A DNA stretch of 60,000 nt from Zygnema cylindricum. Its lineage: Eukaryota > Streptophyta > Zygnematophyceae > Zygnematales > Zygnemataceae. Positions 6,301-44,710 of this stretch are shown in pieces (the stretch's first letter is position 1; each line of letters starts with the position of its first letter). The stretch covers positions 300,782 to 360,781 of the forward strand of contig JBBHKE010002698.1 in assembly GCA_037447655.1 (NCBI GenBank), written 5' to 3'. The notes beneath the pieces are model-generated. The model saw nothing but the letters and a program-made list of their open reading frames with translations, was not told the DNA's origin and searched no databases. A program made the translations under genes and the position numbers.

Positions 6301-9300
6301 TTTAATGTGCAATTCTCTTTCCGCATCTACAACGACAACAATTGGTGCCATGGCGATGGCTTTGCCTTCACCTTTCTTGCTTCAAACATAGACTTTTCCA
6401 AATTGGGAGGGTACGGTGGTTCATTGGCTTTGGCGTATAAAGGTCAACCTGTTGTTGGTAGTGTTAGCATTGTTTTTGACACTTATATAAACCCTGGTGA
6501 ACCTAATGGAAGATATGTGGGCATACGTGAAAACTTTGTTGAAGTCCCAGTGACATCCAACAGAACAACTATTTTGGATGATTTCAGTCCGTCCACCAAG
6601 TATGCATGGGTGGATTATGATGGTGCACGCCAGATTTTGCAAGTGTACCTCAACACTGAGAATGCTAAGCCAGCGACGCCTTTGCTTACATACAAAAAAT
6701 CCCTTTGCGAGTTGCTGAGGCCATCTGCCTGTGCCGCATGCCAAACAGTTACTAGGGCATACGTTGGATTCGCAGCTGGAACTGGCGGTTGTGTTGACAC
6801 TCATGAGATTCAAAGTTGGAGCTTTGAAAGCAGTTTCACAGGTATGTATTAAACTCATACTGAAAATTGCGTTTAGCTTCCTTTTCCTCAAGCTTTTGAA
6901 GTCCTTCAATGCTGAACTTAATCTCACATTTGGTCGATCAACCAATCTTAAATTTTGTTAGAAGAAGTTAAAGATCATTGATTGTCGGCTAGCATGAACT
7001 TGAAGCTGTATTAAAAAGCTAAAATTTTCAATAAAGCTTGTCTTTTTTGCAATGAATTCAACCAGGCTTTTTCAAAGTAGCGTAATATGGTTCAAGCATT
7101 CGTACAACATTGAATACGACGTTAATATTCACATGAAATTATTACTTTTGAGAATTTTCTTTCGTTAGACTACTGCGAATTTACTGCGCACTCGTGTGTC
7201 TTGCTGACTTTGACTACTAGTAGATAATTTTGTTTGAAACCATTCAAAAAATAATTTTTTGATACACGTAATTTTTGACAGCTGTAAAAACTTTGGCATT
7301 CTAAATATATAATGCCATAAGGGAATCAAACATATGGGTCAGGGATCAAAAAATGACCACTACCAGAGTGGTAAGTTTCATCTCCCAACTGTTCCATGCA
7401 CAGGCTGGGTGATGGCGCCACATGTTTTTTCTCCGAGTAGAAGTCTCAATGAATATCAAAACTTAGGCAGCATTTTTTTTAGGACCTCCTCTATCGTTTT
7501 ATAGTTTCTAGATAACCTACAAACACAGATTCGGTTGAGTATTCATCGAGCCCTGTAATTTGGCATGATGTTGGACACTCTCTCTTTTTGGTATGGCAGT
7601 GTATGGTCTTGGTCTAGATGATGCACAACCGCAAAACGATATCACAGGCTTTAGTCCTTATTTCTTCCACGCGAGCGTCGGGTATAAGTGGAGGAATAAG
7701 GCTGTATGGACCATCGACACATCTTCGAATTGGACGAATGACCTACCGCCAGTGAAGGACCAAGGCGCCTGCAGTAAGTACATTGCTTCTGAGCTATTTG
7801 CAACTGGGTCATTCTGCAAGAGGAGAGTATTCGTTTCTGCTTTATATTGTTATTCGCAAATGCCACAAAATTATTTGTATTGCTTTTATTTTATCTTTAG
7901 GATTTTGCCCAGTTTGAAGGTATAGGAGTGAAGTTCATATGGATGAGGAATTATTTTGAAGTTCAGATTTCCTCAAGAAACACAAACCAAACCTGTCAAA
8001 AATGGGATTTGTTTTTGAAGATTAAGATATTTAAAGAGAGCTGACCAAAAAGCTTTTGGAAGCCATAATAAATTGTTTTTGTAAGCTTATTTTGTTATTT
8101 CAAAACCAATGTAAAAAAATTAAGGCAATTTATACTTATGGTTATCAATGTTTCCCCACAAGAAGCTTTTGAATCCTACAAAAATACAGATTGGTCAAAA
8201 GCATCCACCTTGAACGATTGATATTACTTTGTAGTCACACGAGTTAGGACTAAGCGGAAAGTTTGACCAAATAGAAATTAAAGATTCATTCACAAAAGGC
8301 ATAAACAGACATTTTGGACGCAATTGAGTAGTCCTGTCTTTAATTTTCCTACTCCGTACTCTCCCACTCTGTCCGTAACTATAGAATACGTTTAACAACG
8401 CTGCACACAACTTAAAGGATCTACTATATCAGGAGGTAATGTTCAATGTCCTAGGAGTTTATTTATTTCATTGACAATCTAACAATAGATCATCCACGAT
8501 GTGCCATTTCTTGTGTGCAGGAAGTTGTTGGATCTATGCTGCAGTAGGCGCTATAGAAAGTGCATACTATATTGCTAATGGAGAACAATTGACGAAACCC
8601 CCTAGTTTCTCGGAGCAACAAGTGGCCAGTTGCCTCAACAAGGGTTGTGATGGCACCGGCTGGCCTTCACTGGCTTTCAGCTTTGCAACTACAAAAAATC
8701 TGACAACCAGCTTTGACCTTTCAAAGCCTTGTACAACACAAATAGTAAATCCCAAACATAAATTATATTCTTTATAAGAAATCCGCACAATTTTAAATAA
8801 AATGGACAGCAATAGTTTAACCCTATTGATTGAGGACATTGGCAATAGCGCTTACCATGTACTGTACTTTGGCATCGACTTTCCTCTGAGTCATAACTGG
8901 CCTCACCGACCTGTTTCTTTAAGCAATTTTAAGTACTGGTTTAAGTTAAAGTTTCACTTATCTAGATACCATTGGGGTATTTTATCTTCACAATCCAAAT
9001 CAAGATCAAAGATTCACAGCGAAGACTAATGTAATTGCAACCTTTTCCTCTAATACATTGCTTTTGGTGCCAGTTTGCCTCATTGTTACATATTGAAGAG
9101 CTTGTCCTAACGATGCACATGGATGTGGGCATGGCCAGCCTACCAGTACTGTTCGCATAACACGATGGGAGCAAGTCAGACAATTCGGCTGGTTTGGCTT
9201 ACTCCAGGCTGTCCTTCAACAGCCAGTTGTAGTTTTTGTGGAGGCCAGTGGCTCTGCTTTTGTCAACTACCGGCAGGTACAGGAACTCAACCATACGGAA

Positions 9301-21025: not shown

Positions 21026-22035
21026 TGTTGTTTTTGAAAAGTTAGTTTCGTGCGTACGCGACATTTTGTGCGCACACGATGTTTTGTGCGAAGTTTTAAT
21101 CCGCGCATTTATGGCAAAAGACGAGGTCGCGGTACGAATAAGATTTGGTTGGTTGATGTCGCTTTCACCAAGTGGACTTTGGGACCACGTGGCGGGACAT
21201 CAAGGGTGTTGAATAACATCTACAAGCGGCGAACAAAGGCCGCCGTTATTTTTTTCAAGGAGGGGGATGCGAAATCGCGTAAAATCACACAACGTACTTT
21301 TGGACGTCTTAGATGCTTTCGAATATTTCGAGGACTCACGTTGACTTAGTCAACATAAGATTTGGTGTCAGTGTAAATATTTGGAGCAAGAACATTTTGT
21401 CTTTTGCACATTATAAATTAGTGTTTCACTGTTCTATTAGCAGCAAGTAGCAATTAGGGTTTGGACGTACCTCAAGTACATTATACATACATTTTTTTAA
21501 TCATATACAGTACTAACTTAGTGACAGGTGCTGCAATAAGATTATTGTAGGACCCAGTTGGTTACTCTGTGAGTATAACTTGCAGGACTTAGTTTATTGT
21601 AGTATCACAGTCAAGTTTTATAAAAGTAATGACGGATTGTTTTTCTGCAAATTTGACCTGTTGGTGTGATCACTTTGATAAATGTTTTGATGTGAAACTT
21701 TGTGAATACATTCTATGATATGGAAACTATTTGTGTGTGTGTTTTTAGTCTGTTCTATTATCTCTGTAGAATTCTGTGAGAAGTTTACTTGGTTAATTTG
21801 ATAAGTTGTCATCTGTTTTTGGGAAACTCTAGAGCTTGTATCTTCTAGATTCCTTAGTGGATTTGGCTCTAACTTTGGAAGTTTGCAGTTTCTATTGCAT
21901 ACTGCATCTTGGTTTAGTTTGAGGTGATTTTATTTATTGTGAAGTAATCTCTGTTGTCTGAAACACATCAGTTTTTGGGGGTAGTCTGTGGTGCTTCCGA
22001 AGGTAATCCATGGCTGAAATAGGCTATGGACAACT
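21026..22035 (+). repeat. 5' LTR of compound TR-GAG element
   Basis: 1010 bp, begins TGTTGTTTTTGAAAAG and ends GGCTATGGACAACT, where the other copies end ACAACA. The gag start codon (22010) lies within its last 26 bases. It is followed at once by ggttatgggtcca, the primer-binding site with one mismatch to the copy at 33773. A 99-codon frame at 21050-21349 is largely preserved in the LTR at 37398. Confidence 0.88.
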
Positions 22036-22475
22036 GGTTATGGGTCCACACCCATGGCTACCCATATTAGAGGGATCTAACTATCACTACAGGAAGTGTG
22101 TGCTTTGATGTTTTCTTCGAAATGATGGAGATAATAGATGTGGTGGATGGTACTCTGGCAGAAACATCAAGTGGATGGGAAAAAAAGAACTGTGAGTGTC
22201 TAAGGGTTGTCAAGAACTCCTCGACTAAGAAACTGGTAATGACATATCTTAAGTTGAAAAATGCAGTTGAATTATGGAAATGCCTAGAATGTAGGAATTC
22301 AGAGACTTTTGTGTATCACTTGTTTAATACTGAAAGTAAACTTTTTAGATATAAAGTATGTAGGCGGAAACATGGTGAAATATTTTACAGGTATAGAAAG
22401 ATTCTTTGCAGAAAATGCTTTGGTAGGAGGATGCTTTAAAGATGCTCAACAAGTCGTTTTATTAATGAGAGGATT
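22010..22475 (+). pseudogene. TR-GAG gag, first half (copy A), broken by gypsy insertion
   Basis: Starts ATG GCT GAA in the LTR and reads MAEIGYGQLVMGPHPWLPI, matching the intact gag at 43007-44284. A stop follows shortly, and the homology continues in another frame: MEIIDVVDGTLAETSSGWEK, then LRVVKNSSTKKLVMTYLKLK and AVELWKCLE. The homology stops at ...atgagaggatt (22465-22475), where the gypsy element begins. It resumes at 32000 with atgagagattacc. Confidence 0.85.
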
Positions 22476-22681
22476 TGTCGTGCATGTGTCAAACATTGTT
22501 AAGATGCAAATAATATCATCAGCTGTGCTCCACTTAAACCCAAACGATGAAAATATATTGTGAATAAAATAAGACATGAAAGAGAAAAATAAATAGATAT
22601 AACAACAGGCAAGGTGAAAGAAAAAGAAAGGCCAACGACTTAGCTGGTTATGATAAGGTCGGTTTACCCCCCTCAAGCTCT

Positions 22682-22909
22682 TTAGCCGGCAAAGGAGTTG
22701 GCCAACACGACCGGTAGCTCGCGACATCCGTGGCAAAACCAATGAAAATCCGGAACTGCTAACAATGGTGGCACCAAACACTCCATGTGAAACCCTTGAT
22801 TGCAATGATCACAAAGTAACATGGTAGTTTCCTTGTTCGATCGATGACAAAAGGTACATGCCGTCGCCTCCGTAATCAGCATCTGCATAGGATACATATC
22901 CTGCGACAA
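22682..22909 (-). pseudogene. PHD zinc finger at the C-terminus of gypsy pol
   Basis: The frame reads ACTFCHRSNKETTMLLCDHC, then NQGFHMECL and WFCHGC: a full C4-H-C3 set of zinc ligands in PHD spacing. Upstream, with frame changes, it joins the integrase C-terminal region. PHD fingers read histone tails, typically H3 lysine 4 states, so an insertion-site role is plausible; chromodomains play that part in other gypsy clades. The zinc ligands are all intact although the polyprotein is broken. Confidence 0.85.
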
Positions 22910-23208
22910 ATTTGGTAAGTAACATGGAGCACAATTCTTGGAGTACTCTCAAAAAGTTCGGGTGTCCCCTCCTTGTAATACCAACATTCTGTTCGGATCC
23001 GCCTCGAAGATCGTAGGATGTGTGAAGAAACATCAGTGTCCAAAGTGTCGAAAGATTGCCTTCGAAGATAAACATAGTCTCCCACCCGATAGGGCTTCTG
23101 TTGCAGCTTGTAACTGCCACCACGAGTGGTGGCTAACCGAATTGTGTCTCGATGCTTGGAAATCTGCAGGTTATCAAAAGCCATGGATATTTCACGGGCA
23201 AAAAGCAA
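22876..23208 (-). pseudogene. Gypsy integrase C-terminal region
   Basis: Contains ISKHRDTIRLATTRGGSYK and the basic PYRVGDYVYLRRQ block, typical of the SH3-like C-terminal domain after the integrase core. It shifts frame before the PHD finger. It lies just downstream of the catalytic core at 23452-24219. Confidence 0.7.
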
Positions 23209-23451
23209 AGCACGACGAGTGAGTTATTCCTAAAAGATAGTGTCAGACATCAGCAGAAGTGGAAAGCTTGCAGCTTTATGAATATTGCGATCGAGCAATG
23301 GTTGTCGCCAAAATAAAACATATTACGGGCTGAAATTAGCCAGACTAGCTTGAACTGACATGCGATATCCCATGGTAATGTAACCGAGGGACTCGTCCCA
23401 AACCGAAATGTGTTTCTCTAAGCAATGCTTATGCAAGGCACGCTTAAATAT

Positions 23452-24219
23452 CTAGACTGCCCGTTCAGCCAGGCCATCGGCCTGGGGGTGATCCTGACTA
23501 GTACGATGATGATCGATGAGAGCCTCATCAAGCATCTCTTGAAATTCTCCCCAAAATTCTGTACCTTGATGCGTAAGAACCTCGGCTGTGGCACCGTATC
23601 TCATAAAGACATGTTCCTTAAAAGCTGCGGTGGTTAACTTAGCTTTCTTGTGAGGCAGGGCTACGACCTCTACCCACTTACTGAAATTTTCGATCATAAT
23701 CATGATATATTGTTTCCCCCTACGTGAGATGGGAAAAGGTCCAGCCAGATCGACCGACCATCGATATAATAAACCCCTAATAGGTAGAGGTTGGAGCGTA
23801 GTCTGCCGGTTAGAGAAAGAAGTTAGGAGACGGTCGCATGTGGCACACTTGTGTAGAATAGCAGCGACATCAGCTTGCATTCTTGACCACCAATACTGTA
23901 CCTGAACTAGACGTAACGTTCGCTGGGTACCGTAGTGACCAAGCTCAGTGTGAATGTGCTCAATGAGAGAAAGACGCTCGGTAGGCCATGGAACGTGCCT
24001 ATGGCTTCCGTCTCCCAACAACCGAACTAAAGATCCCCCGAGCCAAAGGTAAATTTTGGCCCTCTTTTTCACTCGGTCTTTTTCATCAGAGGTAGTGCTG
24101 GACCTGAAGGTCTGGGAGGATAAGAAAACAATGAGAGGCCCGTCATTGCTAGGATCAGTGGCGGGACGGGGGTTGATAATAGACGCCAAATAATAAGATA
24201 GATAAAAACCCATTGACAT
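23452..24219 (-). pseudogene. Gypsy integrase: HHCC finger and catalytic core
   Basis: 255 open codons. The zinc finger reads HTELGHYGTQRT ... CATCDR (H-x3-H ... C-x2-C). The core begins WSVDLAGPFPISRRGKQY (first Asp present) and has NFSKWVEVVALP. The second catalytic position reads VLTHQGTEFWGEFQ, with His replacing the expected Asp. The Glu is in QADGLAERAV. The loss of one of the D-D-E residues by a D-to-H change would inactivate strand transfer. Up to the end of the track the frame is otherwise open, so decay is recent to moderate. Confidence 0.9.
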
Positions 24220-24249
24220 GACGGGAACATCGTCGTCATCGAAATCCTG

Positions 24250-24585
24250 TCAAACTCCGTTATCTGTTGTTCGGGGCAAAGGATTTCGGGAAATTCCGTC
24301 TGCGTTTAGACTAAGGAGACCTGGTCGGTGAATTATTTCAACGTCATATTCTTGTAAGATTAAAGCCCATCGGGCTAACTTCCCGGAAAGCTTATCGTTC
24401 GTCATCAGCCAATGTAAGGGTTGATGGTCAGTTATGAGTGTGAAAGGTTTTCCGTACAAATAATGGCGGAAGTGAACGACTCTCCAATCCGCGGCTAGAC
24501 ACTCTCTTTCGTAGCTACTATAATTTGATTCAGCCCGGTTATTGCTTCTACTCGTGTAAGCAACTACGTATTCCTCTCCGCTCAA
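24250..24585 (-). pseudogene. Gypsy RNase H domain
   Basis: Reads EEYVVAYTSRSNNRAESNYS, YERECLAADWRVVHFRHYLY, FTLITDHQPLHWLM, ARWALILQEYDVEIIHRPG and NADGISRNP. These are the conserved gypsy RNase H blocks, including the Glu in YERECLA and the Asp in TDHQPL. It continues in a shifted frame from the RT at 24613-25410. Confidence 0.9.
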
Positions 24586-24612
24586 CTCTATTTGTGTCCA
24601 AATGGCAGCGAT

Positions 24613-25410
24613 TTAGGGTTTCCCAAAATCTATTTGGAAACAAAAAGGGAGTTTGTGATTGGGAGGACGAAGAATTGGAGCACTTGATAAAGCGGTTTTT
24701 AATTTTTGAAATGCGGAAATCTGATCGGGACCCCATTTAAACGCCACTTCCTTCTTGAGAAGGTCGTTTAACGGAGATGCGATAGTGCTAAAATTAGATA
24801 AAAACCTGCGATAATAATTAGCAAGTTTGAGAAAGGCTCGCAGACTTGTGAGGTCCGTGGGAGCAGGCAATTTACTGATTGCTTCTACCTTTGCTTCGAG
24901 AGGAGTGATCCCCTCAGCCGAGATAAAATGGCCGAGGTAAGGCACTCCCTCGGCTCCAAAGGTGCGTTTCAGTGGATGACATTTTAATCCGACCTTTTTT
25001 AATTCAGTCAATACCTATTCGATGTGAGCGGTGTGCTCTTTGATAGTAACCGAGGCAATGATGAGGTCATCGATGTAACATCTAGCAAACTTAAAACCTC
25101 CAAGAACGGAGTCCATGACTTTTTGAAATACTGCCGCAACATTGTTCAGTCCGAATGGCATTACGGCCCATTCCCATCGGCCGTCGCTACCCCAAAAGGC
25201 AGTTTTATGCCGGTCTTTTTCCTCTTTCTCAATTTGATTGAATCCTTGACGGTGGTCAAGGATACTAAAATACTTTACTCCGCCTACATGATCAAATATT
25301 TCTTCGGCAAGAGGCATGGGATGACGATGTTGAACCGTTCTAGCATTTAGTTCACTATAGTCACCACACATTCGACGTTCTGTAAAATTACCCTCGAATC
25401 CTTTTTCCAA
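24613..25410 (-). pseudogene. Gypsy reverse transcriptase (two open segments)
   Basis: Segment 25410-25015 holds RRMCGDYSELNARTVQHRHP, YFSILDHRQGFNQI, KTAFWGSDGRWEWAVMPFGL and the active-site box RCYIDDLIIAS. A stop separates it from 25011-24613, with LKCHPLKRTFGAEGVPYLGH, RAFLKLANYYRRFLSNF and FKWGPDQISAFQKLK. The YIDD catalytic box is intact. Normal motif LDLRSGYHQI appears as LDHRQGFNQI. Together these give the full RT palm, connection and thumb. Confidence 0.92.
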
Positions 25411-26164
25411 GGCATGACAGTGGGAGCTTCAAATGTGGAGTCTGACCGATAGATTAGCCTAGCTTACTCAACTTCACCACATCGCTTGTCTACCATTTCC
25501 CATTCAGTTTCTAACAAACGATGTTTCAGTTTAAATATCGGGCGGTCATCTTCGAGATCTATCGACATCTTATAAGCGGTGTAACGACCCAAATCATTCA
25601 TAGAAAGAGCAAAGGCATGCACATTTTCGTAAAACTACGTCATTCAGTAACTCTTGTTTGGCCTTTGTTAGGTTGGTGCCGAATTTCCATTAAGGAGCAT
25701 CAAAATTTTCGGTTGTCTTAGCTTCCATAGCTTGTGCAAAGGCCAACTGCTCATCTGTGATAAGCGTTTGACCTAACTCGTAAGATAAGCTTTTGACCTA
25801 ACTCGTAAGCTGCAGGTGTCTGTTTAAGGCGATTAATCGAATGATTCCAACTGCGTGTTGGAAAAGTAGCACTCTAATGAGGAGTGGGTGGAATATGCAT
25901 GGGACATGTAGACTGGACAGCCGTGTATGCGGGAATAGACCAGGACATATGGCTAGGATTGAGTAAATCATAGATAGAGATCTCCAGGACTGGTGGAATT
26001 GGAGAAGGAAAGAGGAATAATAGAAATGTGGTCCCTTGGAGAGTGGGACGGAAAGATTTTCTTAGTGATGCATTCCCCCCCCCAGCTGGCTGAGAAATAT
26101 GTTCCTGAGAGTAGGGACCAGATGCAAACCCAAGACCTAAAACAAAAGACAAAGATTGAGGATC
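25411..26164 (-). pseudogene. Linker between DNA methyltransferase and RT
   Basis: No conserved domain recognised. An open frame at 25874-26167 begins MDPQSLSFVLGLGF and continues directly from the end of the methyltransferase. Below about 25870 the frame is broken by several stops before RT homology begins at about 25430. Confidence 0.5.
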
Positions 26165-27075
26165 CATGACACGACCTAATAAAGTGCATTTTTGACGTTC
26201 AGTAAGACCAAAGCGGCCGTAGTGCCTCGAATAAAATGCATGAGGCGTTCTCGTTCCGTAGAGGTAGGCTCTTCGAGCTCACCGGTATGAATTTTTCGGA
26301 GCATACCAAGACCGTCATAAGAGAATGCATGTGAATGTGGGTAAGAAACTAAAGTAGGAAGCACCTTGAGAGTTTGACACAGGACATTAACATTGAAATT
26401 AGGGGGACAGTCCTTTTGAATGCAAGGCTGCACCTTATGGAAAGGAAGAAGGGCAGCCTGAATGTTTGTAGGAGGAGGACGAACTAACAAGTTGGCCTCA
26501 CGGAGTCTACCAACATCGATCAGGTTCTCCATTTGGAGCGAACCCGTTGTGCTAGTGAACCATGGCGAGCCGCGTCAATAGTAAGAGGCGGATCAATTAA
26601 TTGTTCGATCCGTTGATTATCAGCCAAGACTCTAGGTCTTGAATCATTATAGGCTGCGATATTTTCCAAGATATACCCCATAGGATGATCTAAAGTTTGT
26701 AGAAAATGCAGGATTCAAACCAATTCAAAAAATAATAGGTGCGGGGATCGGCTAATCCGAGGCCTTTCCTAGCCCGAGACATTCCCTAGCACTCCCATCC
26801 GCCAAAAACTAGATCGATTGGACATATCTCTAGTAAGTTATGGTTGCCCACAATCCGAATGTCTTGTGGGAGGCCAGTATGCATATGCTCGTATGCAGAT
26901 TTTGGTAACAAATGCGGGTATTCGGAATGCAACAGATTACAATGATGTAATTGTGCTTTCCGTGCTAACGGATCAATCTCAACCGAATAATAAAATCGGA
27001 TAAATAATCCATTTTGCAAAAATGCAAGGAGGGAAGTGCCTATTCCAGCGAAAAGGTCCAAAATAACCAATCTAT
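26165..27075 (-). pseudogene. C5 cytosine DNA methyltransferase domain inside gypsy pol
   Basis: From high to low coordinates the motifs come in normal order. Motif I is VILDLFAGIGTSLLAF (about 27030-27070). The SAM-binding acidic strand is YYSVEIDPLARKA (about 26980). Motif IV is PIDLVFGGWEC followed by TAG (26786-26788) and GMSRARKGLGLADPRTYYF. Motif VI is YILENIAAYND (about 26660, other frame). Motif VIII is SLAQRVRSKW (about 26545). The C-terminal blocks are LPTLVSYPHSHAF, EPTSTERERLMHF and ERQKCTLLGRVMDP (about 26165-26330). The catalytic Cys is kept, but the usual Pro-Cys-Gln is Glu-Cys-(stop), one C-to-T step from Gln. The spacing and the ENI/QRVR motifs suggest a de novo (DNMT3-like or related) enzyme. 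It uses S-adenosylmethionine to methylate cytosine C5. Confidence 0.88.
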
Positions 27076-27384
27076 TTAGATGAGGTTTTCATTAGACCAG
27101 ATTCCAATTAATGGGAAGAAACCCAAAAGAGTCTATACAGACTAGGATTGTTGGAGAGAACGGAGAAAGTGGAATTGACAAGGTTTGGTTATAGATTCGG
27201 TCAAATTCCCTCGTATCTATAAGAAAACCTGGGTCACTAAAAATTTATGGTAAGTAAGAACTATCGGGCATAATTTCTTCTGCTGACAATGAATGAAATA
27301 TTTCGGCCCCCACCGAATTCCCTGAAAATGCAGGTATGGAGGTGGCCGAATTCGCCATAATAGGCATGGGCTTCCTAGCAGAAA

Positions 27385-28082
27385 TTAGCGGAATGCAGAT
27401 TTTGCGTTCCGGGAAGCTAGTGGGCCTATAAGAAAATGTCTGATCAGCATGTCAACACCACCCCCTAAACGAAATATAACGTCCTGTCCCACTAGGCATT
27501 CATAGTCACTACATTTACTGACTAGAGCGTGAACCGAGATTTCAGCAAAGTCTGTGGGCGTTCGGTTTTGGAACCTGAAAAAAAGCGATTTTTTAGTGAT
27601 TCCTAAGACTGGCTCAGTTGTACCCGCTGATGTTAACAAGCGAGTAGAAGTGGACTGAAGCTTGTCTAGAGTTAGACCAAGCTTGAGTGTAAAGCTCGAG
27701 CCGAATAACACTGGCTTGCACCCGTATCCATGAGAGGCAGGGAAGGGGCTATACCATTGATCAATAATGCACCCTTCCCGTTATCCAAAAAACTGATGTG
27801 AAGATCAAGGGACTTTTGTTCCTCCATGGAAATAGGCTGAATAGCAACAAGATTTTTGTGCAGCTGAGGTGCTTGTAACGCGGCAGCTGTAGCTGAGCTA
27901 TCGGAGGTTAATGAGATAGGGGAGATTTTCGGTGAGTCGGAAATCATAGTGGATAGAATGCACAAGCGTTCTTTCACGCGGTGTACCTCATGTATAGTGC
28001 GATCCACTATGTTGAGAGCTTTAGGCGCGATGGCTGAAGCGGTTTTGGGCAACGGAGGAGAAGGTTCTTTAGTGAATGACAA
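27385..28082 (-). pseudogene. Gypsy aspartic protease (retropepsin)
   Basis: One frame ends GIAPSLPLMDTGASQCYSAR, with the DTGA active-site loop of retropepsins. The next frame (27711-27385) continues with LDKLQSTSTRLLTSAG, ISVHALVSKCSDYECLVGQD and a GGGVDMLI-type ending. The preceding part (28082-27760) is a Ser/Pro-rich linker after the zinc knuckles. One frameshift separates the DTGA motif from the rest. Confidence 0.8.
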
Positions 28083-28439
28083 AGGAATGCAGGTGTTAGG
28101 AGTTTTACTGTCACGGTTGTGATCGGTCGAATCTTTGTCAATGGTAGCCTCTCATTGTTGGATGGTGGAATCTCGTAAGATTCCACTTGCCAACGTGGGC
28201 ATGTGTACCACATTGCGAGCCATGCCTGTAAATTGTGGCTTCATTTGAGTCATGAAGGCTACGAATTGTTCCTTCATTATAACCGCCATTTGCTCTTGCA
28301 TTTCTAAACACTCTCTCTCTCTTCGAGATACCTGAGGTGGAGTGGTGTCCTTCTCCGGTTATTTAACCGGTTGAACCGGTCTTGCGGATCGAGCTGGAAT
28401 GCCACCACTCTTAATTTGGTTCTGATTGGAATATTGCGA

Positions 28440-29781
28440 GTTTTTTATATGACAACGATAGACATAATGTCCGGTTTGCTTGCAATGTGTACAGGTAGCA
28501 ATTTTGTTTGGACACCTTCAAGCATCATGCCCCGTCTTCTGACATCGGAAACATAATCGGTTTTTGGGAGCAACAGGTGGGGTTCCCATGGTTGGAACTT
28601 TAGGAGGCCGTTGTTAGGCCGAGGATTGTTCCATGGTGGAACAATCAGTTCATTCGGGACCGCTTTAGGACGGTCATGGGCTTCCCACCAACAATTTTGC
28701 TTTTCATATTCCACGGCATGCTGGGCGGCTTGGTCGAAAGTGAACTTCAAACCATACGTTTAAGTCAGGTGACTCTAGATAAATTTCTTAGACTGACTCG
28801 GAAACTGTCCTACAAATTTTTGGACAGCTTCAACATCCGACATTAAGTCCCGCAATGCTTCACGAAAAGCTTCCATACGAGCACGCATGGCAAGGGCGGT
28901 CTCTCTTGACTTTCGCTCGAACTTCATTAACTCACGAACTTGGTTTGGGTTTTGCCTAAGGTATTCCGCATGCAACACTTCAAGCATGATAGAGAGCGGA
29001 TCCAATATAGGGATTGTCACGCTGGTCGTGCTGGAATTCCAGCACGTGCGGCTATATCAAATTGTTGCGGTATTTCCGCAACTTCTGCTGTAATAACATT
29101 GCCATTGAGATCAAGGACTTCCGAGATAGCCGGTTGATAAGGAATTTCTGGTTGTCATATAATAGCAGGACTCCCAGCGAACGCTGGAGAAAACTCCGTC
29201 ATCGCAAGTACGGAATCATACTTGCGCGAATAAAGACTAAGGGCTAAACCGCGGAGGTAACGGCCTAAAAGAGAGAAAGCGACCCGTAGGGCGAACCGAT
29301 CTTGGTACCGAAATGCAAGATCACACATTTCGATATCAAATAGCATTCGGAAATGCGATAAAGTCATGGTGTCCTTCATTCCTGAAAAATTGAAATGAAG
29401 GCGCCCCCCTCCCTCTGATGTGGAAGCCATTTCCAATAATGGAATGCTTGGGGATAAAAATGGATTGGTAATTTGTGGAAACCAAAAAGATAATGAATCG
29501 AAATCCGACCCGTCAAGGGAATCCTGGTCAGATTCCTCTTCGAAAAATGTGGAAGAGAGTGATGATAAGGAAGTTACCGAGGTGAGAGTAGATCGAACAG
29601 AAGGGGAAATTTGACCTGAGATATTTAGGACAGGATGGTCCAAAAGACTAGATAAATCTGATGGTCCGGATTCCGTGGGCCTAAACAAGGCCGATGATCG
29701 GGTGGTTCCAACAAGATAATCGAGATTATCCCAATCGGTGGGCATAAAAAATGATAACACCAAATGTTGACCAGATAACAA
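28440..29781 (-). pseudogene. Gypsy Gag with two CCHC zinc knuckles
   Basis: Segment 29781-29155 starts near MPTDWDNLDYLVG and continues through a Ser-rich region to HFNFSGMKDTMTLSHFRMLF. Segment 29020-28775 is capsid-like: LHAEYLRQNPNQVRELMKFE and AMRARMEAFREALRDLM. At about 28450-28570, in a shifted frame, are CFRCQKTGHDA(stop)RC and CTHCKQTGHYVYRC, two canonical C-x2-C-x4-H-x4-C knuckles; one carries a stop. Gag packages the RNA and forms the particle. Several frameshifts are present. Confidence 0.82.
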
Positions 29782-31999
29782 AATCGATCTATCCGATATG
29801 CTTCAAATGCCAGGCCACACCACTCTCTTGTCCAATCAGCCAAACAACCTCCTACAGGGCCTCGGTGGCCAGATCTATCAAGAAGCCGTATTACCAAAAC
29901 CTTCTACCTTGCAAATAAGGGGACAAGGCCGAAGGGCCAAATCTATTAAGGCAAATAATTTTCTATCCAAGCACTCCGAACTGCGGATCTAAAGCGGCAC
30001 AATCCACAAAAGAGCTAACCACTGCCTCCAACGGCAAGATCTATGGAAAAAATCCCACACCGGGCAATGGAAACTTAGCCAAGGCCACTCAGGGCCAGAT
30101 AGCAAGCAGGGAAAGCTAGACAAATGCAATGCTCAATACAAGTGGATTAACACTAATCCACTCCAAACACGATCCCTCTATACGATCAACCGACTACCTT
30201 AGCACGCGCCTGTACCCGCAAGGCATCGTGATACTTACATAACACTCTTAGCAATCTGGTGATTGCCAAGGGTGAACTACGGTTGTTCGCTACAACCGAA
30301 GTTTTGCAGAGCTCCCAAGAACGGATCCGCTCCACTAACTCCACTCCTTAGTGAAGTATGACTGAATGTGAGCAAACGATGCCCATTATATATAACAAAG
30401 AAAATGGGATAAACAAAAACCAAATACTTAAATTAGCGTAGTATATCGTTGGATGAAAATTGGCAAATAAGATAAAATGTCATCTAAGAAGCAAATGGTA
30501 ATTATATATGAAAAGCTAGTTATAGATTTTCGTGGAAATGTATCTATAAATATATATTTTTGATTATTTTTTTAAATATTTTTGTTTTTTTTTCCTAAGA
30601 TAAAAAGAAAACCGAAATTGAAATAAAAATAAACAAGCGAGAAAAGAAAATACGACAATTTTCAAGTGCAGGAATACTAAGCTGATGGATGACCACTACG
30701 CCCCACGGTCTATTTATATTCCTTGCAGGAGTTATCTTTATCGAGAATAATCTGAATTTATACTCAAATAAAATAAATCAAAGCATAAACAACTGAGAAA
30801 GATAAATAAAAACTGAAAATGATAATATGCCCAACACTTATGAGGTTTGAGATAACCAAACTCAAAAGATGCGAATAAGCCAAATAGAAATAAATACACA
30901 ATCTCAAGAAATAAAACAACAAATCAATAATCCCAACATGCAACTTCCACACTAATTAAAATTCAGCCATAGCCGGGGGAAGAAGTTTGTGTTGTGAGAT
31001 CGCGGTCGAAATCCACTCAAAAGGACGAGAAAAGTGAAGGGAAACCGTGTAGGTCTTGGCCGAAGCTGTATAGATTAATATGATAATTTAATAGAAAACT
31101 AGACGCTTCACGCAAAGGCAGAAAAAATCGCCTCTAAGCTGTCCGGACAATTTTACAAATAAAAAGATGGCTGCAAGGAATCCTCAATGCTGAAAAATAA
31201 ATAAAATGAATAATTCTTGTCTTGAAAATTGTGTGCATGAAATGATCCGAAATGAACTAATTAACCAAAATTACGCCTAGAGAAAACAGGCCAATCAGAG
31301 TACAGCGTGCTATGTAAGTATTTGCGTCTAGTTTGGATTCGGCAATAGGAGGCCGAAATTCTATGCCCTACGTTACAGAATCTATAACCTACGGATTAAA
31401 ACCCTTCCTATCTACATGTGAACGCGTGAACCTCCAAATGGTCCACGACTTAAAATAGTCCAATTGCGTAGCTTCGTCAAAACTGACAGCCGATTTGTCA
31501 GTCATTTGCGTCGACAATCAAGATGTGAAGTTACAAAAATTACATAATCAGCGTCGACAGCCGGGATGCTACTCCACGTGAAATGATTAAAAAATGTCGT
31601 CGGCCGGGATTTCGGAAAACGAAATTAGGTAAGGTAGGACCGAAGGTACGTTCTAATTTGTAGTCGCGGGAATTCCGGGTAATGTAAGTCGTACGGTCGA
31701 CGAAAATAATCGAATCCACCGTCGACAGAAATCGCAGAAAATTTATGTCGTACGGTAGGACCGCGAGTACGGTCCAAATCGTCATCACGGAAATTGCGGG
31801 AAATATAGGTCGTACGGTCAAAAATACATATGTACGGTCGACGCGTACGGTGATGTAAAAATGTACGGTCGACGCGAACGCGAAATGTAGGTATGTACAG
31901 TCTTGTAAAACCCATATAACACCCAAATACAAATTAGTGTGGCAGCTGCCCGTCGTAATCCCTAAATATAAACAATTACAATGGCCGACGAGATGTGGC
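29782..31999 (-). other. Gypsy 5' leader / presumed LTR region
   Basis: About 2.2 kb without coding homology upstream of Gag. On the element strand a TATATATAAT box lies at about 30388-30400, followed by a GC-richer stretch toward Gag, which could be the promoter of a 5' LTR. Boundaries of the LTR and a primer-binding site were not identified. Confidence 0.45.
31630..31880. repeat. CpG-rich imperfect tandem repeat near the gypsy 5' end
   Basis: A unit beginning gtaggaccg and ending gtcgtacggtc occurs at about 31634-31700 and again at about 31755-31820, period about 121 bp. Further gtacggtcgacg strings continue to about 31880. The unit is dense in CpG (gtcgac, cgtacg). Confidence 0.75.
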
Positions 32000-32946
32000 A
32001 TGAGAGATTACCAAGTGACTATAGAGATGCATCAAATAGAATAGCTCAAATTGATAAAAGGGATTGGACCTTAAGTCTAGCAATCTGTACAGTGCTAGAT
32101 GAAGAAGATTGGAAAAAGGTTTTTGAGATGAATATGGAGGTCTCTAAGTCTTAGTTTCATAAAATTAGAAGTAAAAGTGAATCCGGAAATGAACTTAAGC
32201 AATGTTTTTACTGTAATGATTTAGGACATACCTTTAGGGTATGTCCATCATATAAAAGTCCATGTGTTACAGGAAATTTCAAAGATGGATGGGACAACAA
32301 CCGAGTTCTACCCTCAAAAAAGAGGGAACCAAGTGCTTTTATGAGTGAGAGACAAGCCTCAACCGATGACAAAAAGCGTACACCTTCGGTCGACAAATTC
32401 GTTTACTTGCCGATTGTTTGTGATTTTTGGAATATGGTGAAAGAGGAAGAAAGGGAAAATTATGTTGTTACCGAAAATGGAGTAGAGAAAGAGCTGACAG
32501 GAAACGATTTGCTTACCGTCAATTTTTCTTATGACAGATTGCTGAGTGACACAAACTTACAAAAGGAAAAGGTTAGTAAAGTAAGAGGATTTGAAGGAAG
32601 TGAATGGCACCCGGAAGTGGAAGTGGAAAGGATTGGAAAAATTGTTGTCACACAATATAGTGTGGAGAAAGAAGAGGGTGAAAAAGACTCGGTTTTAGTG
32701 ACTCTTTCTAGTGATAGATTGTTGTGTGAAAATTACTTACAAGGGAATGAGATTCTTCAAGAAAGGAGAGTAAAAAGAAGTGAAGTTCACTTAAAATTGG
32801 ATGCAAAATATTCTTTAAATATAGAACATACTAAACTTAAAAAAAAAGTGAAAGAAGGGCCGAGAGAAGATAAGATAAGTAGAGTAAGAGAGGAGAATGA
32901 TGAGAGAAAAATGGTGGATTGGCACAAAATGGGAAAACACAAATAG
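32000..32946 (+). pseudogene. TR-GAG gag, second half (copy A)
   Basis: Resumes exactly where the gypsy element ends: the gag text of copy A continues from atgagagattacc. A CCHC knuckle (CFYCNDLGHTFRVCP, near 32205-32245) is intact. From 32341 an open frame of 201 codons encodes the acidic/basic C-terminal part (FVYLPIVCDFWNMVKEEERE, then KELTGNDLLTVNFSYDRLL, ending KMVDWHKMGKHK). It is homologous to the C-terminal part of the intact gag at 43007-44284. No pol follows before the next LTR remnant. Confidence 0.82.
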
Positions 32947-33287
32947 AAAATAGAAAGAGAATAGTGTCGTTGAAATGCAAAGGAATAAAAAGGAAAATAT
33001 TTAGGATAATAACTCTACAGAGGAGTGATAAAACTACGGAAAAAGACCAAAAACTAGTGAGAAGAATCACACATTATAGAGGTTATGGGGAGGCAACCAA
33101 TGGAAGAGGTACAAAGTCTATGTGGAGACCATAATGTAGTAAGAAAACAAGAAGAAGATACAAATTAAAGAAGACAAGCTGGAGAAGAAACAAGCTCCAA
33201 AGGCGACCACACAAAGACTGGAAATGCCTTGGAAACCGAAACATTCCATGGAAAAATCATTGTTTAAACGGGAGAAAAAGTGGAGTG

Positions 33288-33772
33288 GACCCAGTTGGTT
33301 ACTATACGAGTATAACTTGCAAGACTAAGTTAATTTTAGTGTCACAGTCAAGCTTAATCAAAGTAATGGCAGACTGTTTTTCTACAACTTTGACCTGTTG
33401 GTGTGATCACTCTCATTGATGTTTTGATGTGAAACTTTGTGAATACATTATATGATCTAGAAACTATATGTGTGTGTAATTCTAGTTTGTTTTGTTATCT
33501 CTAAAGAATTCTGTGAGAAGTTTACCTGCTTAATTTGATAAGTTGTCAACTGTTTTTCGGAAACTCTGGAGCTTCTATCTTCTAGATTCCTTGGTGGATT
33601 TGGCTGTAACTTTGAGAGTTTGCAGTTTCTATTGTATACTGCATATTGGTGCAGTTTGTGGTGATTTTGTTTATTTTGAAGTATAATGTGTTGTCTGAAA
33701 CACGACATTTTTTGGGGGTAGTCTATGGTGCTTTTGAGAGTAATCTATGGCTGAAATAGGCTATGGACAACA
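33288..33772 (+). repeat. Middle LTR of compound element, first half deleted
   Basis: The sequence joins the gag-downstream region (...gggagaaaaagtggagtg) directly to LTR-internal text (acccagttggttactatacg). It then follows the LTR to ...ggctatggacaaca at 33772. About 520 bp of LTR and the post-gag spacer are missing compared with the copy at 36570-38414. Confidence 0.8.
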
Positions 33773-33785
33773 GGTTATGGGCCCA
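33773..33785 (+). promoter_or_regulatory. Primer-binding site complementary to the anticodon arm of initiator tRNA-Met
   Basis: The first 13 bases after the LTR, ggttatgggccca, are the exact complement of TGGGCCCATAACC, the anticodon stem-loop of plant-type initiator tRNA-Met. Internal (half-tRNA) priming of this kind is known for Drosophila copia and Ty5. The site also encodes residues QVMGP of Gag. Equivalent sites are at 22036-22048 (one mismatch) and, on the minus strand, 44245-44258. Confidence 0.8.
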
Positions 33786-34564
33786 CACCCATGGCTACCC
33801 ATATTTGATGGATCTAATTATCACTACAAGAAGTGTGTGCTCGAGAGCTACTTCGAGGTGATGGAGCTAATGGATGTGGTGGATGGTACTCCGGCTGAAA
33901 CATCAAGTGGATGGGAAAAGAAAAACCGTGAGTGTCTAAGGGTTATTAAGAACTCCTTGACTGAGAAACTGGTAATAACATATCTAAAGTTGAAAAATGC
34001 AACTGAATTATGGAAATGCTTAGAATGTAGGTATACAGAGACTTCTGTGTATCACTAGTTTAGCAGTGCCACTAAACTTTTTGGATATAAGTATGTAGGC
34101 GGAAGCATTGTAGAATATTATAATGGTATAGAAAGATTGTTTGCAGAAAATGCTTTGGTAGGGGGATGCTTTACTGATGCACAACAAATTGGTTTTATTA
34201 ATGAGAGGATTACTTAGTGACTATAGAGATGCATCAAATAGAACAGCTCAAATTGATTAAAGGGATTGGACCTTAAGTCAAGCAATCCGCATAGTGCTAG
34301 ATGAAGAAGATTGGATTTTTTTTTTGTGAGGAATATGGCGGTCTCTAAGTCTCTGTTTCATAAAATTAGAAGTAAAAGAGAATTCGGAAATGGACTTAAG
34401 AATTGTTTTTACACTAATGATTTAGGACTTACGTTCAGGGTATGTCCATCATATAAAAGTGCATGTGTTACATGAAATTTTACAGAAGGATGGGACAACA
34501 ACCGAGTGCTACCCTCAAAAAAAAGCGAACCAAGTGCTTTTATGAGTGAGAGACAAGCCTCAAC

Positions 34565-35771
34565 TGAAACTCTTAGACCTCCATAAGTCCTCAGAGTGGA
34601 CAGCTTCCAAGAAGCCTCTAGGATAATCCTGACCCCTTTGTGTTTCAGCAAGAATAACTGCCACCCTGGCAGACAAACACTCTGATCACTTGCACCCCTG
34701 TGAAGGCAAGACTCCCCTGAGTCGATAGCAAAAAGAATCTCTGAATTTGCTCCCCTGAGCAGTAAGTTATGGGGGGTCAAAGTTGACCTTTTGTACAGAA
34801 GCTCTCTGGGAGAGAGGGTCCTATCTCCTAATTTTTCTTAGTCCTATCTCTCTCACAGACTCTATCTAATGATGTACGGAACCATTCAGAATACAATTTC
34901 GTACGCAAAAGTACAGCTGCCGGTGTACTTTATGTACGGACATTATACGACATGCCCTAAATGTCGACACATGTCATATCCGGATTCGTTGCCATAATCT
35001 CCGGAGATTCCACAATCCAATGTAATTACGCCACGCGTCATCCGATGTGGCGATGGCCACAAACCGCCGAAATCTTCTTCCGCGATCTCGGTGCTTAATT
35101 CCGGCCGTCCGATTAAAATCGAATATAATCGTAGCTGTAATAAATACATGCGCGGTATTCCTTTCACTTAAGAAATAAATGCGCGGTATTGATTTCTTTC
35201 TCGTACCGTATTCCGTACTTATACATTACCGAATCTATGTATACCGTAAACAATTACAGTTAAATGATTTATCCTACGTTTACATGTTTAAGTAATTATC
35301 AAACAATATGCTACGTCATGTTACATCTAGAGTTAACGGCTAAAGCTACCAGCTACTTCTAGTCTGCCGGCCGGTAGGTACAAGGATCAATTCCTATCGC
35401 TGGCACATTGAAATTTTTGATTTATCTACGTTTATATGTTTAAGTAATTATCAAACTATATACTACGTAATGTTACATCTAGAGTTAACGGCTAAGGCTA
35501 CTAGCTACTTCCTGTCTGCTGGCTTGTATGTTCAAGGATCAATTCCTGTCGTCAGCATTCTTTTTAAATAAATAAACCCTAACTAATATAAATTTCTCAT
35601 AAACCTCTGGATAGCCTAGGTAGCTATGGCTCTAGCTCCCTCTTCAATTTCTCAGTGACTGCGACAAGTTTGAGAGTTTTGAGAGAGAAGTTAGAGATAG
35701 ACTGCCTCGGCTTCTTTCTATATTTCTATTTAGAACTAGAAAATACTAAAAATGTACCATTAATTTCTACA
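34565..35771. mobile_element. Solo LTR of a third LTR family, TSD TCAAC
   Basis: Starts TGAAACTCTTAGACC and ends TTAATTTCTACA, flanked by TCAAC on both sides (34560-34564 and 35772-35776). The uninterrupted gag of copy A (cctcaaccgatgac at about 32350) shows the empty site. Its length is 1207 bp. It contains an internal tandem duplication of about 153 bp (35266-35418 and 35419-35571), each copy with ttacatctagagttaacggc. Confidence 0.9.
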
Positions 35772-40610: not shown

Positions 40611-42714
40611 TGTTGTCCATAGCCATTTTCAGCCATGGATTTACCCTCGGAAGCACCACAGACTACCCAAAAACAGCCTACTTTGATTCAACACAGAATT
40701 TTACAGAAACAACAAAACAAGCTGAAACTTCATTAACAGATAGTATTTAGGATATAGAATAATCTCACAAAGTTTCAGAAAAATATAATAAACAGAGTGA
40801 TCACATCATCTAGTCAACGTTGCAGAAAAACAGTCTGCCAGAACTTTGATAAAACAGACTAACTTCACAATGAAGTAAAACACAGACCAGGAACACAATA
40901 GACCTGCAAATCTGTGACAATATTAAAAATACAAAGAGGAACACACATGCAGAATTTCAGATAGTTCTGCCAACAGATCTGAGAGTAATCCTCAGATAAA
41001 ATTACCAAAAATCACCATAAACAGTTTTGGTCCAAAAAGTTCCTATGTCCTGAAATGACTAAGTCCTACAAATATATACAAGAGCTTACTGAACTTAGCG
41101 AAATTACTTTGTATTTTAGCGCGGATCCGCCGGACCCGGTGTTCAAGTGTCCCTATGTCTGTAAGGACAAAATCGTAACTTACGCTTGTGACGATTGTAT
41201 ACGTCGACAGTACCTGTGACGGTTGTCAACGTCTACAATCTGTGGTCGCACGTTGTTTTTGTACCTGCGTGTGACGTCGCATGTCTTACCGTGACATTGT
41301 AGACGTAGCGCCTTCCAGCCTGTGCAATTTCACGGTCGAAGAAGATGCCCTTTGTCTTCGCGTCGCCTGTCCGCTCGACGTGAAATGGCATCGGAATTTG
41401 AAGACCCCTGCAAAAAAAGAAATCCGTACTAGACGAAAACGGACAAATCCAAACAAATTGTGTACTTGTATTTGTCGTATTAGAACGCAAACGGACAAAA
41501 CATAGCGAACTATGTACTTTTCTTTGTCCTTGAAAATCGTAGGATTTTTGTCAAAATTTACGGCACGTGCGAAAGTATGTTCCTATTTGTCAATCGAAAA
41601 AACCTAATTTTAAATCACATCGCGCATGTGTTTTAAAGATAAGGTTGAAGATGACGTTTTTTGTCGTCGAAGTGGGTCGAAAAGCACAAGACGACAACTT
41701 TTCGTACATCCTAAGTTCAGGGATGACGCAAATTGTACTCTACAAATTTGCGATTTCCTCGTACGGTTGCAACTTAGGCAGTACGGCGCTAAGTTTTACA
41801 GCAAAACGACAAGAAAAAACCCTTACTTATGCACATGGGGACACACCCTAAGTCCTACAAATATATACAAGAGCTTACTGCTGAATGTACGGAGGCATAA
41901 AAGCCGTACGCTATCTACCAACTACCTCAATTAATGTAGATATACCGTAATACTTCAAAGTATGTCAAATTAAGTAAACGTACACTAATAATTAATTCAC
42001 AAAAGGACAAAACAATGTTGAACCAAATATTTACACCGACAACAAAATTGTATGCTGAGTCATTGCGTGTAACTCAACAAGACTCCACGAATCTCGTCAA
42101 ATAATCCGGGCCGTCCAAAAATATATATCGTGTGATTGACGTGATTTCGCTTTCCCACTAATTGAAAAATAGCGGCGGCCCTTTTCCGCCGTCCGTAGCT
42201 CTTATCCGACACCCTTGATGTCGCGCCACGTGGTCACAAAATCCAAACGAAATCCACGCGAGTCGTCAAATATCCCACGACATGGAGAAGCGAATTCACG
42301 TCCACTTGCCAATATAATAATAGTACAACCAAAATCATTTCCGTACCGCGGATGCGTCCTTTGCATTAAATGCGGATTGTCACAAATAAGGTACACGTCA
42401 TTTGTCATAAACGTCGCCTGTCGCATATAAAGTACATTTGTCCAAATTAGATGCTCCGTATCGGCGACGTACATTTCGTATATTTCACGTCGGATCGCGT
42501 CGCAATCCGCCGTTTATTTCTTAACGCATTCCGCGCCACTCAATTACTCCATCACGTCCCTTTAGTTTTACTCATACATTTACTCCCCCAATCCACAAAT
42601 CCATTCGAACCTCCATTTGTACAACCACATTACTTCCGGTAATAATATTCGCACGAAACGTCGCGTGCGCACAAAATGTGGCGTACGCACGAAACTAACA
42701 TTTCAAAAACAACA
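40611..42714 (-). repeat. 3' LTR of copy C (with an insertion)
   Basis: 2104 bp because of an insertion of about 0.77 kb (41092-41847). Without it the LTR is about 1.3 kb. A polypurine tract (ctcccccgaaatttt on the plus strand, 42715-42729) adjoins it. It ends with the first 26 nt of gag, like every LTR of the family. Confidence 0.88.
41092..41847. mobile_element. Insertion in 3' LTR of copy C: MITE-like, with 33-bp flanking duplication
   Basis: The LTR text ctaagtcctaca...gagcttactg (33 bp) occurs on both sides (41059-41091 and 41848-41880). The insert ends GGGGACACACCC next to TAA, and has an inner inverted match GTGTCCCTATGT (from about 41147) to ACATGGGGACAC (ending 41844). The right end looks like a TAA-type MITE end; the left end carries about 55 bp of extra sequence plus the duplication. 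It is the same TAA that is occupied by a different MITE in the other LTR. Confidence 0.6.
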
Positions 42715-43006
42715 CTCCCCCGAAATTTTAGTTTCGTGCACCCATAATAAAATATGCAGCGTGTCAAGTGTATTTGTACCATTCATTCAAATGTCACCAC
42801 TGCTTCCGCTGACGTCACCACTGCTCCAGCTGCCTCCTGCCATGTCTTCCAAAATCCGTCTTTCCTACACACACCTTTGCTTCCACTACTTCTTTCTAGG
42901 TTTTCAAAACACAAACTTTCCCTCTCAAACAATTATAAAATTCAAAGTGCTAAATCCGAAATTCATCAAAGATAACTAAATGTCAAGGATAATCACCTCC
43001 CCAAAA

Positions 43007-44284
43007 TTATTTTTCACGATGCTTTCTTTTGACCATTTTTTGCATATGTTTTCTTCTACGGTTTATCCTTTGACTTTTACTTCTTTTCTTTGTTTTCTTA
43101 ATAAATTTTGGTATTTTCTCAATTTTTGAACTTTTGTTTTCTTTTCCAATATTATAAACTTCCTCTCCTACTCCAATTTTCTGAACATTTTTCCTTTCTC
43201 CCTCTTTAAGTACATTAATCTCCTCATGCAAATTATTTTCAGTTTCCACTTTTAATTGGCCTTCACCTCCTCCAACTATTCTCACTTCAATAACCTCTTC
43301 CTCTTGTAAATATTTATCACTCACCAATCTGTCATCGGAAAAATTGACAGAAACCAAATCCTTTTCTGTAACCCCTTTCTCCACTCCATTTTTGGTGGCA
43401 GCACATGTTTCCCTTCCTTTTTCATTTTCCATATTTAGAAAAATAACAGTCGGCAAGTATACAAATTCATCAACGGGAAGTGTAGCCCTTCGTGTAGGGG
43501 GTCGAACCCGATTGTCATCCCATCCATTTCGAAAATTTCCTGTGACACATGCACTTTTATAAAGTGGACATACTCTAAAAGTATGTCCTAAATCATTACA
43601 ATAAAAACAATTTTCTGATTTACCACTTTTTCTATCTTTCTGAAATTGTGATCTCACACCTTGAAAATTCCCCCTATTCTTTAAAGCCTCTTTATCATCT
43701 TCTTCATCTAAAACAAATCTGATAGCTAAAGGTAAGCTCCAATCTTTTTTATCAACTTGTTTTAATCTATCTAAAGCACACCTATATTCTTTAGGTAATC
43801 CTTTTATTAACAAGAGAACCTTTTGAACATTTGTAAAGTTTCCTCCTGCAATATCATTTTGTGCAAACAATCTTTGCAAACTAAGGCAATATTTCAACAT
43901 GCTACCTCCAACATATTTATATTCAACTATTTTTGTAGCACTAATCATCCAATGATACAAAGAAGTCTTTTGATAAGTGCATTCTAAACACTTCCACAAT
44001 TCAGCTGCACTCTTCACATCAAGGTACATCATTACAAATTCCTTAGTCATAGATAGCTTGATAATCCTCAAGCACTCCAGGTTTTTCGCCTCCCATTCAG
44101 CCGATGTTTCGACACATGTCCCATCCACCACATCCATTAGCTTCCTCAACTTGAAGTAGCCCTCCATAATACTCCTCCAACAATAATATTCAGTTCCATC
44201 AAATATGGGTAAGTAAGATTCATCCAATATGGGTAGCCATGGGCGTGGGCCCATAACCTGTTGTCCATAGCCATTTTCAGCCAT
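43007..44284 (-). CDS. Intact Gag of TR-GAG element
   Basis: 425 codons, ATG at 44284 lying inside the 5' LTR (the LTR edge is 44259), so the first eight to nine codons are LTR-encoded. It starts MAENGYGQQVMGPRPWLPIL. The retrotransposon gag domain (UBN2/DUF4219-like) spans roughly residues 30-200, with YYCWRSIMEGYF, LRIIKLSMTKEFVMMYLDVK, AAELWKCLECTYQKTSLYHW and VLLLIKGLPKEYRCALDRLK. A single CCHC knuckle CFYCNDLGHTFRVCP lies near residue 232. The C-terminal third is acidic, then strongly basic (KKTKKRSKSQRINRRRKHMQ). It would bind RNA and assemble the particle. No downstream pol exists, and the frame is undamaged although the element is non-autonomous, suggesting Gag itself is under selection or the copy is recent. 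Confidence 0.9.
   Translation of the reverse strand: MAENGYGQQVMGPRPWLPILDESYLPIFDGTEYYCWRSIMEGYFKLRKLMDVVDGTCVETSAEWEAKNLECLRIIKLSMTKEFVMMYLDVKSAAELWKCLECTYQKTSLYHWMISATKIVEYKYVGGSMLKYCLSLQRLFAQNDIAGGNFTNVQKVLLLIKGLPKEYRCALDRLKQVDKKDWSLPLAIRFVLDEEDDKEALKNRGNFQGVRSQFQKDRKSGKSENCFYCNDLGHTFRVCPLYKSACVTGNFRNGWDDNRVRPPTRRATLPVDEFVYLPTVIFLNMENEKGRETCAATKNGVEKGVTEKDLVSVNFSDDRLVSDKYLQEEEVIEVRIVGGGEGQLKVETENNLHEEINVLKEGERKNVQKIGVGEEVYNIGKENKSSKIEKIPKFIKKTKKRSKSQRINRRRKHMQKMVKRKHREK
44245..44258 (-). promoter_or_regulatory. Primer-binding site of copy C (half initiator tRNA-Met)
   Basis: On the plus strand gtgggcccataacc adjoins the 5' LTR. It equals 14 bases of the plant initiator tRNA-Met anticodon arm, with the CAT anticodon in the middle. 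It lies within the Gag coding sequence. Confidence 0.8.
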
Positions 44285-44710
44285 GGATTTACCCTCGGAA
44301 GCACCACAGACTACCCAAAAATAGCCTACTTTGATTCAACAAAGAATTTTACAGAAAAAACAAAACAAGCTGAAACTTCATTAACAGATATTATTTAGGA
44401 TATAGAATAATCTCACAAAGTTTCAGACAAATATAATAAACAGAGTGATCACATCATCTAGTCAAAGTTGCAGAAAAACAGTCTGCCAGAACTTTGATAA
44501 AACAGACTAACTTCACAATGAAGTAAAACACAGACCAGGCACACAATAGACCTGCAAATCTGTGACAATATTAAAAATACAAAGAGGAACATACATGCAG
44601 AATTTCAGATAGTTCTGCCAACAGATCTGAGAGTAATCCTCAGATAAAATTACCAAAAATCACCATAAACAGTTTTGGTCCAAAAAGTTCCTATGTCCTG
44701 AAATGACTAA

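Follow-up and report, generated by a model that had tools for sequence, protein, structure and literature searches.

A decayed gypsy-type element of Zygnema cylindricum with a DNMT3-like methyltransferase domain between protease and reverse transcriptase

Introduction

Can a gypsy-type retrotransposon of a streptophyte alga carry a DNA cytosine methyltransferase (DNMT) within its own Pol and, if so, what would the enzyme do for the element? The question is raised by a stretch of 60,000 nt from Zygnema cylindricum (contig JBBHKE010002698.1, positions 300,782 to 360,781), here called the window, for which an earlier note had claimed a DNMT at 26165-27075 within a gypsy polyprotein, between protease (PR) and reverse transcriptase (RT).

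Retrotransposon-borne DNMTs have been described before. According to the parts of PMC5890265 (de Mendoza et al. 2018) available to us, the KnitGypsy-Dnmt3 elements of Klebsormidium nitens are gypsy elements whose Pol includes a DNMT3 under purifying selection, and Symbiodinium harbors DNMTs in DIRS and LINE elements. This matches the report on charophytes and dinoflagellates to which the earlier note had referred. The SymbioDIRS-Dnmt3 enzymes methylate CG in yeast, and methylation of the retrotranscribed cDNA was proposed for the DIRS elements; for the gypsy DNMT of K. nitens, the yeast assay detected no activity, a result that its authors regard as inconclusive (PMC5890265). A study of 2025 refers back to the 2018 cases and names, in its accessible text, LTR Copia and DIRS elements as carriers (PMC12344493). 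In the accessible parts of the later literature on retrotransposon DNMTs, including this study, we found no new gypsy case.

Results

Insertion Site and Domain Order

The element is delimited by the copia-like repeat into which it is inserted:

22476..32000, unstranded: whole insertion (~9.5 kb) within a copia-like repeat, with flanks that are continuous in another copy

That is, the flanks 21550-22475 and 32000-32366 run uninterrupted in the copia-like repeat copy 33287-34567. Eleven bases next to the insertion on the left (22465-22475) are found again on its right (32000-32010), apart from one indel. They resemble an 11-base target duplication of the gypsy insertion, longer than the 5 bases usual for gypsy elements. 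Self-alignment revealed no LTR pair of the insertion; the copy, decayed as it is, may be truncated, or its repeats may be split. When we looked for DIRS-like split repeats, the only repeat seen was a local tandem one near the 5' end of the insertion, i.e., two copies of ~125 bases (68% alike) at 31598-31842.

Within the insertion, we annotated the following features in coding order (P numbers denote proteins from the searches described below):

28778..29802, minus strand: probable Gag region, by position
28362..28517, minus strand: zinc-knuckle-like motif C-x2-C-x4-H-x4-C of Gag, by reading
27421..27747, minus strand: retropepsin (PR), 5' of the DNMT; tblastn of P0005 and P0018, 34 and 37% identity
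26074..27115, minus strand: DNMT3-like cytosine-5 methyltransferase domain from motif I to the C-terminal block, in three frames; PF00145, P0001 and tblastn of relatives
26729..26800, minus strand: motif IV GGWEC, an in-frame stop, then GMSRARKGLGLADPR; direct reading and family comparison
24667..25619, minus strand: gypsy RT; PF00078 59.2 bits, above cut-off
24253..24735, minus strand: RNase H (RH); RT_RNaseH 101.6 bits on 24253-24612
23455..24249, minus strand: integrase (IN), H2C2 zinc-binding domain and rve core; 53.4 and 39 bits, above cut-offs
22685..22948, minus strand: ORF 3' of the integrase that encodes a PHD finger; PF00628 42.4 bits at residues 31-75, above cut-off

The coding order on the minus strand is thus Gag-like region, retropepsin, DNMT, gypsy RT, RNase H, integrase and PHD finger. 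This is the Ty3/gypsy Pol order PR-RT-RH-IN with the DNMT placed between PR and RT, such that the order PR-DNMT-RT-RH-IN-PHD given by the earlier note holds, with a Gag-like region before PR. The RT matches P0017 with 60 and 63% identity (tblastn, E 2e-107), and RT_RNaseH_2 scores 31.3 bits at the end of ORF 24616-25014. The window retropepsin has no Pfam match; it aligns to P0001 with a BLASTP E-value of 6e-9 for that single comparison, and the overlapping ORF 27675-28151 has a DTGA motif just short of its end, by reading. The zinc-knuckle-like motif stays under the cut-offs of zf-CCHC (13.9 bits) and zf-CCHC_3 (16.6 bits), and the two ORFs tried in the probable Gag region gave no convincing Pfam match. 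Our literature search on PHD fingers in gypsy elements gave nothing usable; the accessible text of PMC6338049 does not mention PHD. No CpG depletion of the element stands out (CpG o/e of 0.94 for both element and window).

The DNMT Domain of the Window Copy

Reading the minus strand, we find LDLFAGIGT (motif I), SVEIDPLAR (SAM acidic strand) and GGWEC (IV), followed by LENI (VI), QRVR (VIII), the LPTLVSYPHSHAF block and the TERQKCTLLGR block, where the labels are those we take these motifs to have. The order, which is not circularly permuted, is the one previously claimed, and the catalytic cysteine is present in motif IV. The blocks are spread across three reading frames, with one stop directly behind GGWEC, i.e., within motif IV. 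The first frame (motifs I-IV) by itself scores 13.6 bits with PF00145, which is under the cut-off of 22, and the four later pieces by themselves have no Pfam match. When the domain is read through with an X at each break, PF00145 yields 26.9 bits, such that the profile check proposed in the earlier note comes out above the cut-off. Among about 5.8 billion proteins searched, the top relative is P0001 with E 3.3e-60. On 26.0-27.1 kb, tblastn scores 107 bits for P0001 and 110 bits for P0005, while the maxima among 1000 dinucleotide shuffles of this region are 25.0 and 27.7 bits, respectively. Given the E-value, the read-through profile score and shuffles that come nowhere near, we consider the match real. 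It places the DNMT at about 27088-26074, in close agreement with the interval claimed before. The window copy itself is dead: its DNMT is frameshifted and has a stop in motif IV, so that a working enzyme in this copy is unsupported.

Relatives and Their Junctions

Three protein searches returned 4, 16 and 1212 matches (120 of the 1212 listed), where the second and third scored only those 7996 and 7997 candidates, respectively, that had most words in common. We define the close family as 22 proteins (P0001-P0018, P0022-P0025); the bacterial-type match P0019 was left out and used as outgroup. Twelve family members pass the PF00145 cut-off with 31.8-54.7 bits (18 members scanned, 20 scans in all), and P0022 (15.9 bits), P0004, P0010, P0012, P0016-P0018 and P0024 fail it. 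The catalytic cysteine is kept in all 16 members that cover motif IV.

Stretch by stretch, the relatives match the window with about 30-63% identity, and the domain order is the same. On the PR side, P0005 and P0023 combine retropepsin and PF00145 in a single ORF, both above cut-off. P0018 has a retropepsin of 25.4 bits (cut-off 24.3) and extends to motif I by alignment, P0001 shows a retropepsin tail by alignment only, and P0015 matches PF00145 with protease matches under cut-off. On the RT side, a single ORF of P0017 holds the C-terminus of the DNMT together with RVT_1 (92.6 bits). Aligned to the window, P0016 and P0010 pass from the DNMT into the first part of RT. P0003 and P0024 extend 5' of the DNMT, where Pfam found no protease; for the remaining members, no junction was identified. 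The whole PR-DNMT-RT order is thus pieced together from several relatives, no single protein spanning all three domains. P0007 and P0017, whose contigs are equally long, probably come from the same contig, and likewise P0010 and P0018. A PHD finger is not seen in the relatives, none of whose proteins extends that far. We met no homologous gypsy copies that lack the DNMT, the case that the earlier note had named as refuting its claim; the relatives were baited with the DNMT, by which such copies would be missed.

Exact short patterns, which reach close relatives only, gave no relatives in GTDB prokaryote contigs and one distant match in IMG/VR viral contigs, i.e., a DNMT relative at 8001-8294 of contig L001 with 32% identity over about 110 residues.

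Affinity to DNMT3

Among DNMT classes, DNMT3 is nearest by profile, fold and tree, where the tree has no rows for DNMT1, CMT, DRM and DNMT5 and represents DNMT3A by one partial row. The phylogeny suggested earlier is therefore answered in part: DNMT3A is nearest in profile and tree, and DNMT1, CMT and DRM are compared by profile scores only. The outgroup of the tree consists of 17 proteins, namely P0019 and 16 of the 120 listed matches, chosen by hand. P0022 and P0009 were left out as near-copies of P0012 and P0006, respectively, as were P0004, P0010, P0014 and P0016-P0018, which are without most of motifs I-VI.

The catalytic domain of animal DNMT3A/3B is the top profile and fold match, and the structural alignment of DNMT3A and P0001 has 23% identity. 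Motif IV reads PCN in DNMT3A and mostly ECQ in the window family. Animal DNMT3s feature PWWP and ADD domains; in contrast, the scanned ORFs of the window element have no Pfam match to either.

A Glutamate ahead of the Catalytic Cysteine

In motif IV of the window copy, glutamate replaces the usual proline ahead of the catalytic cysteine. We fetched 126 DNMT proteins and compared the 120 that cover motif IV: 109 have P and 11 have E at this position. All 11 EC proteins belong to the retroelement family, with P0012 and P0022 among them being near-copies; of the members fetched, P0012 alone has every motif. Other family members (P0006, P0008, which is without its start, P0009, P0015, P0024) retain PC, and the retroelement DNMTs outside the E group keep WPCQ or FPCQ. 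In the tree, the 11 E rows, window included, form one group with 93/83 support, which is moderate and short of the program's star, and 96% of the 200 bootstrap trees recover this group. A single P-to-E change that was afterwards retained would be the simplest history.

Other hallmarks are kept in the E proteins. The motif VI glutamate (ENV) is found in 9/11, as the sequence of P0013 stops short of it and that of P0025 stops at this point, reading LLAKC, and motif I is kept in all 9 that reach it. The fold model has a mean pLDDT of 60, with 75-92 in residues 171-280 and 57 in residues 281-290, just after the cysteine. The P-to-E change may lower or alter activity. A literature search found no paper on it, which is weak evidence of novelty. 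Relative to the sequences and papers covered here, the WECQ loop may be new.

Discussion

We read the insertion as the decayed remnant of a gypsy-type element; the Pol of such elements would normally have a DNMT3-family DNMT between protease and RT, and intact copies would methylate their own cDNA. As a whole, this reading is probable; its parts differ in strength. The window shows the domain order, and single ORFs of relatives show both junctions. As to function, methylation of its own freshly made cDNA would be the likeliest role. The protease of an intact copy would release the DNMT within the particle or leave it fused to RT there. Either ahead of integration or while it proceeds, the DNMT would then methylate the newly synthesized double-stranded cDNA de novo, and the PHD finger, located on the side of the integrase, might help chromatin choice. 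A cDNA copy methylated in this way would resemble DNA that is resident and silent, not foreign. The window copy is capable of none of these steps. Several observations weigh against this reading, namely the missing activity of the K. nitens enzyme in yeast, the glutamate that most of the family has ahead of the catalytic cysteine, the low confidence of the fold model just behind this cysteine and a CpG o/e of the element equal to that of the window.

That a host DNMT3 gene fragment landed by chance in one gypsy copy, without any role, would fit the broken state of the window copy. But the PR-DNMT and DNMT-RT junctions recur in other contigs, in proteins about 30-63% identical to the window. 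Since relatives carry PR and DNMT, or DNMT and RT, in one ORF and in the same order, the DNMT is not a stray host fragment; as a single event, such a landing is ruled out by P0005, P0016, P0017 and P0023, and we regard any form of this explanation as extremely improbable. Derivation from a bacterial or viral methylase instead of a eukaryotic DNMT3 is also very unlikely. In the profile search, HhaI ranks second among the families, and unnamed, phage and bacterial methyltransferases match the profile with E-values of 1e-15 to 1e-8 among the 120 listed of 1212 matches. DNMT3A, however, is better in profile, fold and tree, and the short-pattern searches, with their reach of close relatives, gave the distant L001 match from viral contigs and none from prokaryote contigs.

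The remaining alternatives concern what the enzyme does. The captured DNMT might have lost ordinary methylation and serve the element by binding cDNA or RNA, by RNA methylation or by blocking host DNMTs, with the P-to-E change as its mark. EC in the window and 11 fetched proteins versus PC in 109, the single E group (93/83) and the inactivity of the K. nitens enzyme in yeast, inconclusive to its authors (PMC5890265), speak for this. On the other hand, the cysteine is kept in 11/11 E proteins, the ENV glutamate in 9 and motif I in the 9 reaching it, which would be odd if catalysis were lost; we consider such a loss unlikely. Similarly tentative, and in our view rather doubtful, is the idea of a widespread green-plant gypsy group in which a single change turned the catalytic DNMT3 loop PCQ into ECQ, which was then retained. 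Its enzymes would differ in chemistry or in what they act on, be it RNA, an RNA:DNA hybrid or a different sequence context, and would work on the element's replication intermediates, with the PHD finger aiming integration.

Returning to the gypsy element with its DNMT3 in Pol, the same kind is already known from K. nitens, and the window copy is a further case. Shared with KnitGypsy-Dnmt3 (de Mendoza et al. 2018) is a DNMT3-related DNMT in the gypsy Pol ORF of a streptophyte element, in accordance with the resemblance to a charophyte case that the earlier note had seen. This likeness refers to the published description of a DNMT3 in gypsy Pol, in the part accessible to us. The repeats of KnitGypsy-Dnmt3 are DIRS-like (PMC5890265, Fig. 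4 legend), whereas no terminal repeats were found for the window element. SymbioDIRS-Dnmt3 and SymbioLINE-Dnmt are likewise retrotransposon-borne cytosine DNMTs but differ in element class, being DIRS with tyrosine recombinase and LINE, respectively; the accessible text of PMC5890265 treats them as independent captures.

The finding supports a de novo methyltransferase in gypsy Pol as a lasting trait of a diverse element family rather than a one-alga curiosity. The WECQ loop and the PHD finger are points worth following: the shared loop is a direct handle on whether such enzymes have kept cytosine methylation, with natural WPCQ relatives as a matched comparison.

Other Features of the Window

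Rfam and tRNA scans of the window found none. Two tandem ORFs on the plus strand (4038-4910 and 6028-6852) have a legume lectin domain with 100 and 120 bits. They contain several cysteines, and the second has only a distant likeness to legume seed lectins of solved structure. The two ORFs point to a green plant. According to the accessible part of a review, legume-lectin domains are present in every lineage of life, with a higher prevalence in plants, and are found throughout Viridiplantae (PMC6362431). Finally, direct repeats of 98-99% identity pair 40611-41063 with 44259-44711 and 41844-42715 with 45433-46304. They surround a copia-type gag ORF (43010-44335) and suggest a young copia-like element or a tandem duplication.
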